Shown here piece by piece: positions 418 through 22,895 of a stretch of DNA of 22,895 bases (the stretch's first letter is position 1; each line of letters begins with the position of its first letter). The notes beneath the pieces were generated by a model. It did no database searches. It saw only the letters and a list, made by a program, of their open reading frames with translations, and was not told the origin of the DNA. Origin of the DNA: Gemmatimonadota bacterium (GTDB lineage Bacteria; GCA-2686955); NCBI GenBank assembly GCA_002686955.1, contig NYZA01000228.1:1-22895 (forward strand), given 5' to 3'. Position numbers and translations under genes: made by a program.

Positions 418-596
418 CCCGCATTTCTCACCAACTGTCGTCGTGAGGCGGCGCAGATTCGTGCCCTGGCGGTGCTTCGCACCGTTTTGCGCGGAGGCGT
501 GCTGGTTGCACGTCGCACAAAGCGAAACGGGGGGAAGTGCTGCCAGGGTGCGGATATGCGCCGCCACAGCAGAAAGTTGGTGAGATATGCGGGCTA
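415..596 (+). repeat. R1 hairpin element, copy A
   Basis: A near-palindrome of 178 bp (core 417-594) with arms of about 60 bp. The left end reads GCCCGCATTTCTCACCAACT and the right end is its near reverse complement. The non-palindromic centre holds GCGGAGGCGT, a small hairpin CGTGC-tggtt-GCACG (498-512) and GTCGCACAA. The element sits between direct CTAG copies (414-417 and 594-597), so the empty site would be GATCTAGCGCC. Copy A defines the forward orientation. No protein-coding pattern is shared with the other copies. Confidence 0.85.
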
Positions 597-8707: not shown

Positions 8708-8819
8708 TGGGGGCGATATGCGCCTTCGCCTCTCGATTCCGAGAGCCGACGCAAGTCGTCCCGGCGGCTGCGCGCGCGGTGGGGGCTCGGTCGCCGCTGC
8801 GTTTGAACACGTGTGCGAT
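8708..8819 (+). repeat. R2 dispersed repeat, copy 1
   Basis: Similar to 22595-22705 along its whole length: GGGGGCGATATGCG at the start, GAGCC(G)ACGC in the middle, a GCGCGCG run, GGGGCTCGGTCG, and the best-conserved end TTTGAACACGTGTGCGAT. Similarity stops right after GCGAT. It lies in the 407-bp stretch between the divergent genes at 8585 and 8993. The rest of that stretch shows nothing else recognisable beyond an AT-rich patch with TAATAT at 8892-8897 that could be a -10. Confidence 0.65.
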
Positions 8820-9043: not shown

Positions 9044-9223
9044 CCCGTATTTCTCACCAACTTTCGTCGCGAGGCGGCGCATCTCCGCACCCTGGCGCCA
9101 CTTCCCCCCGCTTCGTTTTGTGCGACGTGCAACCAGCACGCCTCCGCGCGAAACGGTGCGAAGCACCGCCAGCGCACGAATCTGCGCCGCCTCGCGACGA
9201 AAGTTGGTGAGAAATGCGGTCTA
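9041..9223 (-). repeat. R1 hairpin element, copy B (inverted)
   Basis: This copy is the reverse complement of copy A in its asymmetric centre. It has the longest arms of the four: about 39 bases at each end pair with only two mismatches (ATTTCTCACCAACTTTCG and onward). The core is 9043-9221, flanked by direct CTAG copies at 9040-9043 and 9221-9224. It stands 125 bp upstream of the first double beta-helix gene and may separate that gene from an older promoter. Confidence 0.85.
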
Positions 9224-9348
9224 GATCGGCGCCGTGCGCGGGAGATGCCGGCCGCGTTTCGTGGCGAAGAACCCTCCGCGGGACTGTCGGCCGAGTTATC
9301 CTCCACCCCAGAGACGCCGGAAATCGAGAGTCGATCGAGGAGCAATAC

Positions 9349-11769
9349 ATGAGCGCGGCCAGGTTCATGCTCGCCGCCTGCGTCATCGCGGGCACCGCCA
9401 CGATTCAAGCCGAGACGATACGCGTTCCCTCGGATTACCCTAACATACAGGGCGCCCTCTGGCTCGCCGCCGAGGGCGACACGGTGCTCGTCGCCGGCGG
9501 AACCTACTCCGGTCCCGGCAATCGAGAGATCGGGTTCGAGGGGATCGATCTCGTGCTGCTTTCCGAGGAGGGTGCCGGCGCGACTGTCATCGATTGCGAA
9601 GGCGGCGGATTCGGTGTCTCTTTCCATTCGGGCGAGTCCTCCGCATCGATCCTCGAAGGCTTCGAAATTCGTGGTGCCGGCAATGGAATCAGGTGCATCG
9701 GCGCGAGCCCGGCGATTCGAGGCTGCCATCTGACGGGCCACGAAACCGGCGCGGGCGCCGGGATCTACTGCAAGTTCGCCTCTCCGGCGGTGACCGATTG
9801 CAGGATCACGGGAAATGTCGCTACATCCTCGGGCGGCGGTGTCTATTGCTACGAAGCGTCGCCGATCCTGACCGATTGCACGATCTCGCAAAACAGCGCC
9901 AACTCGTCCGGAGGCGGGATCTACTGTTACGAGGCGTCGCCGATCTTGACGGCCTGCGCGATCTCGGAGAACTCGGCGGGATCCAGAGGCGGCGCGACCT
10001 ACATGCGTTACTCGTCGCCGGTCTTCGCGGGCTGCACGATCTCCGAGAACAGCGCCGACTACGATGGAGGTGGAATCTACGCGACCAACTCCGACCCGAT
10101 CTTCGACGACTGTCTCGTGATCCGCAACCGATCGGATGCGGGTGGTGGCCTGTATCTCTGGGCAGGCTCCTCGGTGCTCACCGGCTGCACCATCGCGACA
10201 AACGCGGCCTACGATGAAGGGGGCGCGATCTACAACGCTTTCCAGAACACTCAGGCCATGGACAAGTGCACGATCGTGGGCAACACGGCCAGCATCGGCG
10301 GAGCGATCTACGTCCGCGGCGGCACGCCGACGCTCACCAACTCTATCCTCTGGGCCAACGCGCCCCGGGAGATCGACATCTACTCCGGAGCCCCGCTCGT
10401 GACCTACTCCGATATCGAGGGTGGCTGGCCGGGCAAAGGGAATATCGACGCCGATCCGCTATTTTGTGATGTGGTTTGCGGCGCCTTCGACGATCTGGGC
10501 CTGGCCGCCGACTCACCCTGCTTGGGAGCGGGATTCGCCGGGGCGGACATGGGCGCCTGGGGGGAGGCCTGCGCCCTGCCGATCGAGCCCCCCGAAGCGC
10601 TCGTCCTCGAAGTGCCGGCTCAGTACGCAACGATCGGCGCGGCCCTCTCCGATGCCTGCGACAACGACACAATTCTGATCGCACCGGGCACCTACGTCGA
10701 GTCCGACCTTGAAGTCCCCGGTCTCGGCATCGTGCTCACCGGCTGGGATCCGCGCGATCCCGACATCGTCTCGGCGACCGTGATCGACGGGGCGGGCGCG
10801 ACCGTGATTCGCTTCTTGCCGAACCGTTCCTCCCGAAAGTGCACCCTCGCGGGCCTGACGATCACCGGCGGTGGCACGGGAATCGAGTGCCATGGAGCCT
10901 CGCCGACGATCGAGTACTGCACGATCTCGGGGAACAACTCGGAATACAGAGGCGCCGGACTCCACTGCTCCTACTCGTCTCCCGCCCTCAACCATTGCAC
11001 GATCAGCGATAACACGACAACGGGATCCGGCGGTGGGCTCTACTGCAGCGACGACTCCTCTCCCATACTCGACCGATGCACGCTCGAGAGGAACTCCGCC
11101 CAAGGCGAAGGCGGGGCGCTCTACTGCTCATCATCCGATCCGATTCTGATCCGCTGCACTCTCGTCGGGAACGAGGCCCGTGGCAACGGAGGTGGAATCT
11201 ACTGCTCTTCATCCGATCCGATTCTCACGAACTGCACCCTCTCGGCGAATGCTGCTGAAGGCGAAGGAGGCGGAATCTACGGCAACACCTCCCCGGTGAC
11301 GCTCACGAACTGCACCCTGAACGACAACTCCGCCGGAGGGCGGGGGGGAGGACTGCGCTGCTACTCCTCCTCTCCCGCCACGCTCACCAACTGCACCCTC
11401 TCGGGCAACTCGGCCGGTCTTCCCGGCGGCGCGCTCTCCCACAGCTACTCCTCCACGCCCTGGCTCACGAACTGCATCCTCTGGGCCGACTCACCAAACG
11501 AGATCGAGGGGGCCGCGACCGCAACCTACTGCGATATTCAGGGCGGCTGGACCGGCGAGGGCAACATCGACGCCAACCCCGGTTTCCGTTTCGTAGGTGG
11601 CTTCGACTACCTGCTGCGCCTCGGTTCCCCCTGCATCGACACCGGCGATCCAACGATCGAAGACGGTATTTCCGACCGGCACCCGCGTTGGCCGGATTGG
11701 TATCACGATGGTCCGCGCTCCGATATGGGGGCTTATGGCGGGCCGGGGAATATTGGATGGCTGCCTTGA
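9349..11769 (+). CDS. secreted double right-handed beta-helix protein, Cys-rich
   Basis: A 806-residue protein. The ATG at 9349 is preceded by GAGGAG at six bases and followed by a signal peptide (residues 1-21, cleavage after TIQA). Two modules each begin with a pectate-lyase-like cap: VPSDYPNIQGALWLAAEGDT at about residue 25 and VPAQYATIGAALSDACDNDT at about 421. Each continues as rungs of about 26 residues with the pattern G-G-G-I-Y-C-x(8-9)-L-T-x-C-T-I-S-x-N-S-A. Module ends carry GGWPGKGNIDADPLF or GGWTGEGNIDANPGF, and the protein closes with RSDMGAYGGPGN. Most rungs carry two Cys at fixed positions. Such folds act as surface adhesins or polysaccharide-binding or cleaving proteins; no catalytic residues can be assigned. 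No C-terminal sorting signal was recognised. It is a tandem paralogue of the next gene. Confidence 0.9.
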   Translation: MSAARFMLAACVIAGTATIQAETIRVPSDYPNIQGALWLAAEGDTVLVAGGTYSGPGNREIGFEGIDLVLLSEEGAGATVIDCEGGGFGVSFHSGESSASILEGFEIRGAGNGIRCIGASPAIRGCHLTGHETGAGAGIYCKFASPAVTDCRITGNVATSSGGGVYCYEASPILTDCTISQNSANSSGGGIYCYEASPILTACAISENSAGSRGGATYMRYSSPVFAGCTISENSADYDGGGIYATNSDPIFDDCLVIRNRSDAGGGLYLWAGSSVLTGCTIATNAAYDEGGAIYNAFQNTQAMDKCTIVGNTASIGGAIYVRGGTPTLTNSILWANAPREIDIYSGAPLVTYSDIEGGWPGKGNIDADPLFCDVVCGAFDDLGLAADSPCLGAGFAGADMGAWGEACALPIEPPEALVLEVPAQYATIGAALSDACDNDTILIAPGTYVESDLEVPGLGIVLTGWDPRDPDIVSATVIDGAGATVIRFLPNRSSRKCTLAGLTITGGGTGIECHGASPTIEYCTISGNNSEYRGAGLHCSYSSPALNHCTISDNTTTGSGGGLYCSDDSSPILDRCTLERNSAQGEGGALYCSSSDPILIRCTLVGNEARGNGGGIYCSSSDPILTNCTLSANAAEGEGGGIYGNTSPVTLTNCTLNDNSAGGRGGGLRCYSSSPATLTNCTLSGNSAGLPGGALSHSYSSTPWLTNCILWADSPNEIEGAATATYCDIQGGWTGEGNIDANPGFRFVGGFDYLLRLGSPCIDTGDPTIEDGISDRHPRWPDWYHDGPRSDMGAYGGPGNIGWLP

Positions 11770-11807
11770 TCGCACCTCACCATCCCGAAAACGACGCCGG
11801 CCCCATG

Positions 11808-11860
11808 GCTGCCGATCCGGCCTCGGCTGGACCGCCACCGCTTTTGAACACGTGTGCCGG
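11808..11860 (+). repeat. R2 dispersed repeat, partial copy
   Basis: Only the conserved end of R2 is clear: GGCCTCGGCTGGACCGCC followed by CGCTTTTGAACACGTGTGC. It fills part of the 112-bp gap between the two beta-helix genes and ends about 20 bp before the second gene's start. ACACGTGT is itself an 8-bp palindrome. Whether it acts as a regulatory site here is unknown. Confidence 0.5.
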
Positions 11861-11881
11861 AGATCTCATAGGGAGCAGGCC

Positions 11882-14746
11882 ATGATCGAAACAAGATACA
11901 CTCTCGCCGCATTGGCTCTCACGAGCGCCCTCGTCGCCCACGCCACGACCATTCACGTCCCCGAGGACCATCCGCGAATCCAGGGCGCCATCTGGTGGGC
12001 GGCCGAGGGAGATACGGTTTTGGTGGCGAGCGGCACCTACACGGGGGTCGGCAACCGAGATCTCAGTTTCGAGGGGATCGATATCGTGTTGCTCTCGGAA
12101 GAAGGCGCCGATGCGACGGTCATCGATTGCGAAGGCAGTGGCTCCGCGTTCTCTTTCGGCAGCGGGGAAAGCCCCGCATCGGTTCTCGATGGGTTCGAGA
12201 TTCGGGGCGCCCACCATGGGATCAAATGCGTCGAATCGAGCCCGACGATACGAGGGTGTTATCTGACCGCGAACGAAACCGGTGTGAGCGCGGGCGGCGA
12301 CGAATTGCCGACCCTTCCCGGCGCTTACCTCACCTTCGACGAGACCGGCGTGGGTGCGGCGATCTACTGCGAATCGGCTTCCCCCGTGCTGGATGGTTGC
12401 ACCATCTCCGGCAATGCGGCCCGCATGGGCGGTGGGATCTACTGCATCTCGGCCTCCCCCTCGCTGACCAACTGCACGATTTCAGAGAACTGGGCATCGG
12501 AACATGGCGGTGGGATCTACTGCTTGGCGTCGTCGCCGACGCTGACCAACTGCGTGATCTCGAACAACTCGGCCTATTGGTACGGAGGAGGTATCTACTG
12601 CGAAGATTCGGCTCTCATCATCACCGACTCTTCCTTCGCCGAGAACTCCGCCGCCCTGGGAGGGGGCATCTACAGCGCGGATTCGACGCCCACTATTACC
12701 GACTGCTTCTTCGCAAAGAACTCCGCCAACGCGGGGGGTGGCATTCACAGCGAGGGTTCCTCGCTCTTCCTTCTGGGGTGTACTCTGGCGGAGAGTTCCG
12801 CCTATACTGGGGCGGGTGTCTACGGGAACTACTCGGATGCGCTTATCGAGAACTGCGCATTCTCGACGAATCGGGCGAGCTCACGCGGTGGCGGCCTTTA
12901 CTGCTACCAAGGCTCGACGACGCTGACGAAGTGCACTGTCGCGGGCAATTCCTCCGACCACGAGGGAGGCGGGTTTTTCTTCGATGAGTATGTTGCGATC
13001 GAGCTCGATCGGTGCAGCATCGTAGGAAACACCGCTACGAACGGAGGCGGACTCTACTGCCAACAAGGCTCCCCCGTTCTGACCAATTGCATCCTCTGGG
13101 CCAACGCCGCCCAGGGAATCGTGGCCGACCGCGGATCTCCGATCGTGACCTACTCCGATGTGCAGGGCGGCTGGACGGGAGAGGGAAATATCGATGTCGA
13201 CCCACTCTTCTGCGAGCTCCTGTGCGAAGAGCCCGACAAGCTCGGATTGGCGGCCGATTCGCCCTGTCTGGGAGCGGGCTACGCGGGTGCCGATATGGGT
13301 GCGTGGGGAGAGACGTGCGCCGAGCCGCCCCTTCTCCCCGAACCTCGTACACTCTTGGTCCCCGCCGACTACCCCACGATCGCTGAGGCCCTCACAGCCA
13401 CTTGCAAAGACGACACGATCGTCGTCGCGCCCGGCATCTACCACGAATTGGATCTGGAGATCCCGGGGCGGGGAATCGTGCTTGAGAGCGAGGATCCACT
13501 CGATCCGGAGGTCGTGGAGGCGACAGTGATCGATGGTGGAGAGAGCGATGTGATCAGTTTCATGCCGAGCCTCTCATCGGGCGCCGGATCGATCGCGGGT
13601 TTGACCATCACGGGTGGAGGCATCGGCATCACATGTCGAAGCGCCTCACCCTCGATCGATCGCTGTACGGTCTCGGGCGATTCCACCGACAACGGCAGAG
13701 GGCTTTACTGTATATACTCCTCGCCCGCGATCACGCATTGTACGATCTCGGGGCGTTCGAGTGGCATCTCCTGCCAAAACAACTCCAGCCCGATTCTAAG
13801 CAACACCATTATCGAAGGCAACTCCGGCTACACCGGCGGAATCAGCTGTTTCGATCACTCCAGCCCCATCCTCACCGACTGCGCCATCATGAGAAATGCC
13901 GGCAGCGGCAGCGGCAGAGGCGGTGGGATCCGCTGCTCGGAGTTTTCCGATCCGACCTTTCGCAACTGCATTATCGAAGAGAACTCATGTGACGGGGCCG
14001 GTGGCGGTCTACATTGTTCCGACTCTTCGGCCCCCACTCTGATCGACTGCAGCATCATCGGAAACTCGGCCACTTTGGACGGAGGCGGGATCTACTGTGC
14101 CGATTTCTGCAGCCCGGTTCTCACGAACTGCACGGTGCGCGGATGCTCCGCCTCGAGCGACGGAGGCGGTCTATATTGCTATCGCAGCTCGTCGCCAACG
14201 CTCACAAACTGCATAGTCGGCGAGAACTCGGCTCAGGGGGGCGACGGCGGTGGGCTCTACTGCTACCAGAATTCGTCGCCGACTCTCACCAACTGCATCA
14301 TCTCCGACAATGATGCAGCCGGCGACGGAGGCGGGCTTTTCTGCTATCTCAACACCTACCCGACTCTCACCAACTGCACCCTGACGGGAAATTCCGCCTT
14401 TGACCAAGGCGGAGGCCTCTTATGTCGTGCATCATCGTCCGCTGCGCTCACCAATTGCATCCTCTGGTCCGACACACCCAACGAGATCGAGGGGACCGCG
14501 ACCGTGAACTACTGCGACATTCAGGGCGGTTCGCCCGGCGAGGGCAACATCGACGCCAACCCCGGTTTTCGCTTCGCTCGCGGCTTCGACTACCTGCTGC
14601 GCCCGGGTTCCCCCTGCATCGACACCGGCGATCCGGCGATCGAAGACGGTATTTCCGACTGGCACCCGCGTTGGCCGGATTGGTATCACGATGGTCCGCG
14701 CTCCGATATGGGGGCTTATGGCGGGCCGGGGAATGGAGGCTGGTGA
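11882..14746 (+). CDS. secreted double right-handed beta-helix protein, tandem paralogue
   Basis: A 954-residue protein from an ATG at 11882, with GGGAG six bases upstream and a signal peptide (residues 1-21, ending VAHA). It repeats the architecture of the preceding gene: first cap VPEDHPRIQGAIWWAAEGDT, second cap VPADYPTIAEALTATCKDDT at about residue 490, and Cys-containing rungs such as GGGIYCISASPSLTNCTISE. The same ending RSDMGAYGGPGN is present. It is longer because it has more rungs, plus a 24-residue insertion near residue 138 that duplicates the E-T-G-V segment. The last 115 bases differ from the sister gene at only a few positions although the rest has diverged widely, which suggests gene conversion. 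No enzyme motif was recognised; a surface or extracellular role is likely. Export could use Sec, but the final anchoring is unclear. Confidence 0.9.
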   Translation: MIETRYTLAALALTSALVAHATTIHVPEDHPRIQGAIWWAAEGDTVLVASGTYTGVGNRDLSFEGIDIVLLSEEGADATVIDCEGSGSAFSFGSGESPASVLDGFEIRGAHHGIKCVESSPTIRGCYLTANETGVSAGGDELPTLPGAYLTFDETGVGAAIYCESASPVLDGCTISGNAARMGGGIYCISASPSLTNCTISENWASEHGGGIYCLASSPTLTNCVISNNSAYWYGGGIYCEDSALIITDSSFAENSAALGGGIYSADSTPTITDCFFAKNSANAGGGIHSEGSSLFLLGCTLAESSAYTGAGVYGNYSDALIENCAFSTNRASSRGGGLYCYQGSTTLTKCTVAGNSSDHEGGGFFFDEYVAIELDRCSIVGNTATNGGGLYCQQGSPVLTNCILWANAAQGIVADRGSPIVTYSDVQGGWTGEGNIDVDPLFCELLCEEPDKLGLAADSPCLGAGYAGADMGAWGETCAEPPLLPEPRTLLVPADYPTIAEALTATCKDDTIVVAPGIYHELDLEIPGRGIVLESEDPLDPEVVEATVIDGGESDVISFMPSLSSGAGSIAGLTITGGGIGITCRSASPSIDRCTVSGDSTDNGRGLYCIYSSPAITHCTISGRSSGISCQNNSSPILSNTIIEGNSGYTGGISCFDHSSPILTDCAIMRNAGSGSGRGGGIRCSEFSDPTFRNCIIEENSCDGAGGGLHCSDSSAPTLIDCSIIGNSATLDGGGIYCADFCSPVLTNCTVRGCSASSDGGGLYCYRSSSPTLTNCIVGENSAQGGDGGGLYCYQNSSPTLTNCIISDNDAAGDGGGLFCYLNTYPTLTNCTLTGNSAFDQGGGLLCRASSSAALTNCILWSDTPNEIEGTATVNYCDIQGGSPGEGNIDANPGFRFARGFDYLLRPGSPCIDTGDPAIEDGISDWHPRWPDWYHDGPRSDMGAYGGPGNGGW

Positions 14747-18876: not shown

Positions 18877-19020
18877 TCAGCCCGTCGAATTGTAGCGGCG
18901 GCCGTAGAGTGAGGGAGGAGCGGTGCGCGCGATCCAACGACCTTGCGCCGGAGTAGCCGGAGCACGCCGATCGCGATCGTCTTTCCGGCACGGGGGCCCG
19001 CCTTCTCCACAACCTCGCCC

Positions 19021-19150
19021 CCCGCGCACGCGTTCAGAAGCAGCCTGATCGAGCCGAAATTGGGCGCGCGGCGACCGCGCATGCGTGGCTTGGGCGGTCG
19101 AGTGCTCGAAAGTGCACAGCGCCCCCATCTTCTTCCCCGACCGGGGAGGC
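19021..19150 (-). repeat. R2 dispersed repeat, copy in reverse orientation
   Basis: Closely matches 22387-22515 (roughly nine bases in ten), for example CGCGCACGCGTTCA, GCAGCC(T/G)GATCGAGCC, TTGGGCGCGCGGCGA, CGCGCATGCGTGGCTTGGG, and GGGGAGGC at the far end. Read on the minus strand it ends in TTCTGAACGCGTGCGCG, the R2 signature. It occupies the 384-bp stretch between the beta-helix pseudogene and the nucleotidyltransferase module. Bases 18877-19020 hold nothing recognisable. Confidence 0.75.
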
Positions 19151-19260: not shown

Positions 19261-19713
19261 ATGGAACTTCCACGAGATGTCCGCGAGCGTTTTCGAGAGC
19301 ACGGACGTGAGGGCGGCCGAGCTCGAGCGGCGCGCATGAGCTCCGCAGACAAGGTGGCGATCGCCCGCCGCGCGGCCGTCTGTCGCTGGACGCGGGAGCG
19401 CTTCGGCGCCTCCAGCTTCGCGGCTCTCGGCTTGCCGGGGGGAGAGATCGTCGACGCAGGCCTCGCTGACCTGGCAGCCGATAAAGAAACGCCGGAGAGT
19501 CTATTGGTGTCGCTGGCGGCCCCACGTCTTCGGCGAGAAGGGGTTCCACTGGCACGGGTCAACGACAAGCCCGAGAAACGTCTCTACGGGATGCTCTCGG
19601 AGAGCGAAGGAGATCTTGCTCACGCTCGCTACAACGCCTACCTGAGACAGATTGTTTCCTTTGCGGACGCCTGCGCGCTGGCACGGATAGATCGGAATCG
19701 ATGTGCGACGTGA
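19261..19713 (+). CDS. basic antitoxin-like protein paired with a nucleotidyltransferase
   Basis: A 150-residue protein with a strongly basic N-terminus (FREHGREGGRARAARMSSAD, then KVAIARRAAVCRWTRERFG) that suggests nucleic-acid binding. The C-terminal part is helical (PESLLVSLAAPRLRREGVPL, then EKRLYGMLSESEGDLAHARY, then YLRQIVSFADACALAR). I recognise this arrangement as the usual upstream partner of AbiEii/DUF6036-type nucleotidyltransferases in environmental genomes, though I know of no established name for it. It overlaps the next gene by 11 bp, and an inverted repeat sits on its promoter. Both facts fit an autoregulating antitoxin. That role is an inference; no experimental counterpart is known to me. 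Confidence 0.65.
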   Translation: MELPRDVRERFREHGREGGRARAARMSSADKVAIARRAAVCRWTRERFGASSFAALGLPGGEIVDAGLADLAADKETPESLLVSLAAPRLRREGVPLARVNDKPEKRLYGMLSESEGDLAHARYNAYLRQIVSFADACALARIDRNRCAT

Positions 19714-20236
19714 GCTGACGCTCGAAAGGTTGCAGGAGCTCATGCGGCAGCTCGCACTCTCCGCGCCCGGCGGCGATTCCTATCGCGTCTATTTGGTGGG
19801 TGGCGGCACCGCGGTCCATGCAGGATGGAGGGAATCGACGATCGACGCCGACCTTCACTCCGATCAAGATGCGGTCTTTCGTGATATCCAACGGATCAAG
19901 GAGGCTCTTTCGCTGAACATCGAGTTCGCTCGGCCGGAGGATTTCGTCCCCCCTCTGACAGGCGCCGGTAACCGACATATTTTCATCGAGACCATCCGAA
20001 ACGTGAGCTTCTATCACTACGATCCCTACTCGCAGCTCCTTTCGAAAGTGATCCGTGGATTTCGGCGCGATCTGTTGGACGCTGAGCAGTTCGTGAGATG
20101 TGGAATGGTCGATTTGGCGAGCTTCCGAAGCCTCGTCCACCAGATCCCGGAGTCGATCTACGCGAAGTATCCCACCCTGTCGCGAAAAGCCGTGCTTGGA
20201 GCAATCGATGCTTTCGCGCGAACGCTATCGCTCTAG
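19703..20236 (+). CDS. AbiEii/DUF6036-like nucleotidyltransferase, probable toxin
   Basis: A 177-residue protein from a GTG at 19703 that overlaps the preceding gene. The nucleotidyltransferase signature is YRVYLVGGGTAVHAGWREST followed by IDADL: a GGG loop and then D-A-D, where the two Asp bind metal. Downstream are FIETIRNVSFYHYDPYSQLL and SKVIRGFRRDLLDAEQFV, with the conserved K-x-x-R-G-x-x-R-D-x-x-D arrangement of AbiEii/MenT-like enzymes. Studied relatives (AbiEii, MenT) add nucleotides to tRNA or otherwise block growth, with the upstream gene protecting. Both the size and the two-gene order fit a toxin-antitoxin or phage-defence module. The substrate cannot be read from the sequence. 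A decayed ATPase gene and R1 copy C follow directly on the opposite strand. Confidence 0.75.
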   Translation: MRRELTLERLQELMRQLALSAPGGDSYRVYLVGGGTAVHAGWRESTIDADLHSDQDAVFRDIQRIKEALSLNIEFARPEDFVPPLTGAGNRHIFIETIRNVSFYHYDPYSQLLSKVIRGFRRDLLDAEQFVRCGMVDLASFRSLVHQIPESIYAKYPTLSRKAVLGAIDAFARTLSL

Positions 20237-20239
20237 AAA

Positions 20240-20605
20240 ACACCGGGGATCGTCGAAGCTGACATAGGTTCGGTCCGCGTCACTCAGCCCGCATTATTCA
20301 CCGAAACGCGTAGCGATCCGGCGCAGATCCGTGCGTGGCAGGTGCTTCGTGCCCTTGCCGCGCGGAGGCGTGATAGCACCCATGTCGCACAAGCGGCGAG
20401 GGTGGGAAGTGCCGGCCACGTGCGGATATGCGCCGGCGTAGTAGCGTTTCGGTGAATAATGCGGGCTCAGGTGCCGCGGCAATGCGGTCTTGCCGACCTG
20501 TCGTGCGCCGGTGAGCAGGCACACGGGGAACTAGGCAGAGCTTCGAAGGAAGTGGGGCTCCAGGGTTTTGGTGAGGTACAGCGGATCCTCGCGGGCTGCT
20601 GCCAA
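20240..20605 (-). pseudogene. N-terminal fragment of a DUF4143-type AAA ATPase, split by R1 copy C
   Basis: On the minus strand, DPLYLTKTLEPHFLRSSA is followed by an in-frame TAG, then FPVCLLTGARQVGKTALPR and H-L, where R1 begins. On the other side of R1 the frame resumes as SDADRTYVSFDDPR. Removing R1 and one copy of TCA joins the two parts exactly in frame, giving the Walker A region (GARQVGKT) and following strand (TYVSFDDP) of the AAA/DUF4143 family. The gene then breaks off near 20240, at the end of the nucleotidyltransferase gene. Three separate lesions (internal TAG, R1 insertion, 3' loss) make it a clear pseudogene. Intact relatives have about 400 residues. Confidence 0.8.
20287..20466 (+). 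repeat. R1 hairpin element, copy C
   Basis: A 180-bp core in the same orientation as copy A. The ends GCCCGCATTATTCACCGAAA and onward pair perfectly for 23 bases, yet differ from copies A and B at several positions, so both arms changed together. The centre keeps GCGGAGGCGT and GTCGCACAA. It is flanked by CTCAG on both sides (20283-20287 and 20466-20470), read as a TCA or CTCAG target duplication. It interrupts the ATPase fragment described separately. Confidence 0.85.
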
Positions 20606-22384: not shown

Positions 22385-22515
22385 CCCCCGCGCACGCGTT
22401 CAAAAGCAGCCGGATCGAGCCGGAATTGGGCGCGCGGCGATCGCGCATGCGTGGCTTGGGCGGTCGAGTGCCGGATTACACCCAGCGCCCCCACATCTTC
22501 CCGGATCGGGGAGGC
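22385..22515 (-). repeat. R2 dispersed repeat, reverse copy of an inward-facing pair
   Basis: Nearly the same sequence as 19021-19150. Read on the minus strand it ends in GCTTTTGAACGCGTGCGCG. It starts 40 bp after the beta-helix fragment and faces a forward copy at 22595-22705. The 421 bp from 22345 to 22765 hold only this pair and short unremarkable spacers. Confidence 0.75.
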
Positions 22516-22594: not shown

Positions 22595-22705
22595 TGGGGA
22601 GGCGATACGCGTCATCGCCGCTCCCGATTCGCGAGCCACGCGAGCTCCAGCGGCCGCGCGCACGACAGGGGCTTGGTCGCGGGCGCTTTTGAACACGTGC
22701 GCGAT
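22595..22705 (+). repeat. R2 dispersed repeat, forward copy
   Basis: Matches 8708-8819: GGGGAGGCGATACGCG near the start, GAGCCACGCGAG, GCGGCCGCGCGC, GGGGCTTGGTCG, and the conserved end GCTTTTGAACACGTGCGCGAT. Together with the reverse copy at 22385-22515 it forms an inverted pair with signature ends at the outside, about 320 bp end to end. Confidence 0.7.
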
Positions 22706-22765: not shown

Positions 22766-22895
22766 TAGCCCCGATTTCTCACGAGATTCCCTAGCGAGAC
22801 CGCGCAGGTTCTTGTCCTGCCGGTGCTTCGTGCCGGTTCGACGCGGAGGCGTAGTGGTGCTACGTCGCACAAGGCGACACGGTGCGAAGCATCGC
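22766..22895 (+). repeat. R1 hairpin element, copy D (cut by the window edge)
   Basis: Starts at CTAG (22765-22768) with GCCCCGATTTCTCACGAG, then the R1 pattern CGGTGCTTCGTGCCGG, GCGGAGGCGT, hairpin CGTAG-tggtg-CTACG (22850-22864), GTCGCACAA and GGTGCGAAGC. The right arm is mostly beyond the window. The orientation is that of copy A. The arm sequence differs from A, B and C, making it a third sequence variant. Confidence 0.8.

Follow-up and report, generated by a model that had tools for sequence, protein, structure and literature searches.

The insertion site and its host sequence

The window (the whole stretch of DNA that was analysed, 22,895 nucleotides) lies on contig C228 of a 4.28-Mb MAG (270 contigs, 84.5% complete) and carries copies A to D of a repeat, R1. 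Copy C interrupts sequence related to AAA_14 ATPases, adjoined by a DUF6036 gene at 19703-20236. The features discussed here are as follows.

418..593, no strand: R1 copy A, 176 bp, CTAG/CTAG flanks
9044..9220, no strand: R1 copy B, 177 bp, CTAG/CTAG flanks
20242..20282, minus strand: continuation of the AAA_14 ATPase relic past R1 (SDADRTYVSFDDPR); homology ends here
20283..20287, plus strand: left target-site duplication, CTCAG
20288..20465, no strand: R1 copy C core, 178 bp, CCCGCATTATTCACCGAAACGC...GCGTTTCGGTGAATAATGCGGG, ends set against other complete copies
20466..20470, plus strand: right target-site duplication, CTCAG
20471..20605, minus strand: 5' part of the AAA_14 ATPase relic, with P-loop GARQVGKT, an in-frame TAG and CTG at the start position
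22767..22895, no strand: R1 copy D, cut by the contig end

Other repeats are present in the window. Long repetitive ORFs at 9214-14746 are made of 78-bp periodic units (CTGCACGATCTC... / GGCGGxxTCTAC), look like beta-helix-like surface proteins and contain 298-nt stretches at 11463 and 14446 that are 91% identical. A dispersed repeat ending CGCTTTTGAACACGTGTGCG occurs at 8761-8819, 11802-11860 and 22647-22705 (a 101-base query located five places in the genome), and the right part of the window holds a direct repeat of 109 nt (19019-19127 and 22385-22493, 89% identical).

Copy C has near-perfect inverted ends, CCCG...CGGG, and its inverted arms (20283-20309 and 20444-20470, 27 nt) are 96% complementary. 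There is no transposase ORF within its 178 bp, making it a short inverted-end element that lacks a transposase gene. Around it the minus strand reads LTKTLEPHFLRSSA*FPVCLLTGARQVGKTALPRH, then R1, then LSDADRTYVSFDDP. Omission of R1 and one CTCAG, a 183-bp unit (178 + 5), rejoins the sequence as GARQVGKTALPRHL-SDADRTYVSFDDP in one frame, GARQVGKTALPRHLSDADRTYVSFDDP, so the coordinates, the sequence and the exactly restorable frame are as the preliminary description had them. The joined 49-residue peptide matches PF13173 (AAA_14) with an E value of 5.1e-5, a score slightly below the curated cut-off, as is expected for so short a piece. The source genome has 13 AAA_14 matches above the cut-off, and the closest paralogue (G000:C77, C77:4571), an intact 432-residue open frame, is 67% identical to the joined peptide over 49 residues and reads GARQVGKTTFLRHL-SDADRTYISLDDP at the junction with no gap (longer stretch, MYIQRTMEAHFRRASEQFPVLLVTGARQVGKTTFLRHLSDADRTYISLDDPR). 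A genome from outside the family (G052) aligns equally without a gap (74% over 34 residues; VTGARQVGKTTLLRHAASADRRYVSLDDP). Given the PF13173 match and the gapless alignment to both, the joined reading frame is not a chance one. In the DNA, CATCTCAGCGAC of the paralogue stands against CACCTGAGTGAC of the relic, with a single CTNAG at the predicted site. The preliminary description had called for intact homologues and empty sites: the homologues do run through the junction, and the C77 locus is a paralogous empty site, the nearest available thing to an orthologous one; no orthologous empty site was found, as the sole same-family genome has no homologous DNA at the locus.

The host was taken at first to be an ATPase gene. 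The AAA_14 assignment stands, but we judge the host to be a gene relic of about 49 codons that has lost its 3' part, not a working gene. Walker A is present; however, an in-frame TAG lies 15 codons in, upstream of R1, CTG occupies the position where the paralogue has ATG and there is no recognisable start. Homology ends just after DDPR, the DNA homology extending to GATCCCCGG, 14 codons beyond R1. The decay may have preceded the insertion of R1 or resulted from it.

Copies of R1 in the genome

Searching the genome gave 45 matches with copy C as the query and 79 with a 176-bp copy. The latter represent about 40 places, the remainder being the same places on the opposite strand, because R1 and its reverse complement share about 74% identity. 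About 40 contig ends, the window's right end (22767-22895) among them, fall inside R1 copies; repeats of this kind therefore break the assembly, the true copy number is higher, and R1 appears to be among the main causes of the fragmentation. Most copies with long enough flanks sit at or outside gene edges. A 56-bp mini-copy at C261 is flanked by TTAG/TTAG. Two copies (L246 on C155 and L247 on C120) are apparently mosaic, with a left part of the C11/C108 type and a right part of the 176-bp type. R1 gave no match in plasmids, and its ends were not found in viral contigs.

Perfect 4-bp YTAR duplications flank 11 of the 13 complete 176-177-bp copies (CTAG in eight, CTAA in two and TTAG in one), and the remaining two match at three of the four bases. 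The 178-bp copies have 5-bp CTNAR duplications, perfect in three of the four (CTCAG in copy C, CTGAG and CTCAA) and matching at four of five bases in the other (C170, ATCAG/CTCAG). R1 is thus short, has inverted ends, lacks a transposase and occupies many unrelated sites with target duplications; from these sequence features we classify it as a multicopy, non-autonomous MITE. The earlier proposal that R1 is mobile is well supported, by homologues that are gapless across the junction, by the target duplication and by dozens of copies at unrelated sites, and we read copy C as a clean insertion of a mobile element.

Relation to IS1380 elements and alternative explanations

Genome contigs were scanned for the R1 end sequence, which located complete IS1380 elements in Acidobacteria (L154, 1709 bp, CCCGCATTTCTCACCGAA...GGTGAGAAATGCGGG between CTAG and CTAG) and in Rhodopila (L158, 1652 bp, CCCGCATTTCTCACCGAA with CTAG/CTAG flanks). 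Their transposases match PF13701 (E values of 1.2e-138 and 2.6e-153, respectively). Both elements share CCCGCATTTCTCACC and the CTAG flanks with the 176-bp R1 subfamily; the 178-bp subfamily has only part of its end in common with them, and the scan returned no complete insertion sequence with the same 22-nt end as this subfamily. Some matches to GTTCACC-type patterns in other genomes are not elements: by eye they belong to short-chain dehydrogenase genes that encode VNNAG. Further IS1380 elements, again in other genomes, are flanked by TTAG/TTAG (L212, 4 bp), TTCAG/TTCAG (L219) and TTGAA/TTGAA (L232, both 5 bp). As IS1380-type elements show both lengths, both R1 subfamilies are matched, and R1 has the 4-5-bp duplication typical of the family. 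Published work gives 4-5-bp repeats for the IS1380 family (PMC12116815) and 5-bp duplications for ISEcp1 (PMC2887853) and IS1247 (PMC3281130). PF13701 had no match in the source MAG, which is 84.5% complete with breaks at repeats, nor in the single genome from the same family, and no IS1380 transposase relic lies beside the solitary R1 ends examined. Since such assemblies are prone to losing repeats, the missing PF13701 match is weak evidence for a true absence.

We suggest that R1 is very probably a non-autonomous palindromic MITE moved in trans by IS1380-family (PF13701, DDE) transposases. Such a transposase would recognise the inverted ends CCCGCATT..TCACC and insert the element at short Y-T-(N)-A-R sites, where filling in of a staggered cut would produce the 4-bp YTAR duplication of the 176/177-bp subfamily or the 5-bp CTNAR duplication of the 178-bp one. 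Copy C would be one such insertion, made at CTCAG in an AAA_14 ATPase sequence, today a relic. The ends, the duplications, the copy number, the gapless homologues and the end match to complete IS1380 elements are observed directly; the transposase as mover of R1 here, and the cut-and-fill chemistry, we infer. More tentatively, and leaning slightly against it, we consider that one palindromic MITE lineage may have switched from 4-bp YTAR to 5-bp CTNAR with changed inverted ends, captured by a second IS1380-type transposase of different cut spacing, while paired changes in both arms kept the full hairpin.

The preliminary description left the duplication at copy C as either 3 bp (TCA) or 5 bp (CTCAG). 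Because the flanking repeats are identical, the joined sequence is the same for 3, 4 or 5 bp, and the restored frame alone cannot choose between 3 and 5. A 3-bp duplication at a TNA site, with a 180-bp element G...C as in some IS5-type groups, would fit the TCA or TGA found on both sides of all four 178-bp copies, including C170, whose mismatch is in the outermost position of the 5-bp repeat. However, it would give copy C8 (CTCAA/CTCAA) non-complementary ends (A...C) and make two additional matches accidental. The 176-bp copies with CTAA/CTAA and TTAG/TTAG, duplications that are not palindromic, fix the ends at CCCG...CGGG, and the 5-bp TTCAG and TTGAA of IS1380 elements agree with the CTCAG, CTGAG and CTCAA of the sister copies. 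We regard the 3-bp alternative as quite unlikely, and the duplication is best read as 5-bp CTCAG. The 178-bp subfamily might instead have been moved by an IS1595-type transposase, as at G000:C264:658 CTCAG and a CCCACATTGTTCACCGAAGC end are followed, after about 70 bp, by an IS1595 zinc-ribbon fragment (PF12760, E value of 3.3e-11). The ends of IS1595 relatives are different, however (GGGGGTAGTCGGTTAGCTCC; GCCTATCCGGTTGACTCC), and by eye C264 continues GGCTATCCGCTTGACGC directly after the R1-type end, which places an IS1595 end within an R1-type copy. IS1595 as the mover is very unlikely and we have rejected it; the C264 locus (L254, 655-700) is best read as an IS1595-type relic inserted in an R1-type copy.

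Two further explanations assign R1 a function. R1 could be retained as a module that inserts in frame, comparable to Rickettsia palindromic elements, given that element plus duplication (178 + 5 or 176 + 4, hence 183 or 180 bp) is divisible by three and that several frames of R1 copies have few stops. Yet a 177-bp copy together with its 4-bp duplication is not divisible by three, a stop within copy C (FGE*CGL) interrupts the ATPase frame and the location of most copies at or outside gene edges also speaks against it; we find it extremely unlikely. R1 could also be chiefly a functional hairpin, a transcribed structure element with arms under selection and mobility secondary. One hairpin of 68 pairs spans the whole element and is common to 19 aligned copies, with changes on both sides in 26 pairs; pairing is present in 95.2% of cells, against 87.1% when shuffled and 36-50% when slid. 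Swapping whole arms between copies reduces pairing among 15 copies of the 176-177-bp type (p 0.0002) and in a core of 10 (p 0.004), values that come from the oriented alignment (unoriented copies gave p 0.41), and copy C folded as RNA has -117.9 kcal/mol (z -10.8). Against this, swaps have no effect among the four 178-bp copies, no Rfam family was found for R1, relatedness of the copies inflates the covariation counts and arm conversion through the hairpin could yield the same pattern. For these last two reasons, selection on the hairpin is only possible, and we think it unlikely that structure is the chief function of R1.

Comparison with known systems

R1 resembles the IS1380 family (PF13701; L154 and L158 here, and ISEcp1, IS1247 and ISPme1 in the literature) in its inverted ends, which are CCCG-type and carry the TCACC motif, and in its 4- or 5-bp target duplications at CTAG or YTNAR targets. 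Unlike IS1380 elements, which are about 1.6-1.7 kb, it has 176-178 bp and no transposase gene. Like bacterial MITEs, it is short, multicopy and non-coding, has insertion sequence inverted ends and a target duplication, and lies mostly at gene edges; unlike bacterial MITEs in general, it is palindromic from end to end and falls into two subfamilies that differ in the length of their duplication. The ends of eukaryotic piggyBac also start with CCC, and its 4-bp TTAA duplication resembles the YTAR of R1. IS1380 transposases form the outgroup in piggyBac trees (PMC10813416); piggyBac nevertheless belongs to a different superfamily and a different domain of life, and the likeness is a resemblance only. 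In the limited literature searched, no description of an IS1380-derived MITE was found. R1 is of a kind already known and is slightly unusual in two respects: a single lineage in a single genome has duplications of both 4 and 5 bp, and hairpin pairing is retained over the full length. Copy C offers proof of mobility, anchored in gene sequence, for a repeat by which the assembly of this genome is also fragmented, and the two subfamilies in one genome provide a natural comparison of end sequence with duplication length in IS1380-type (piggyBac-like) transposition.
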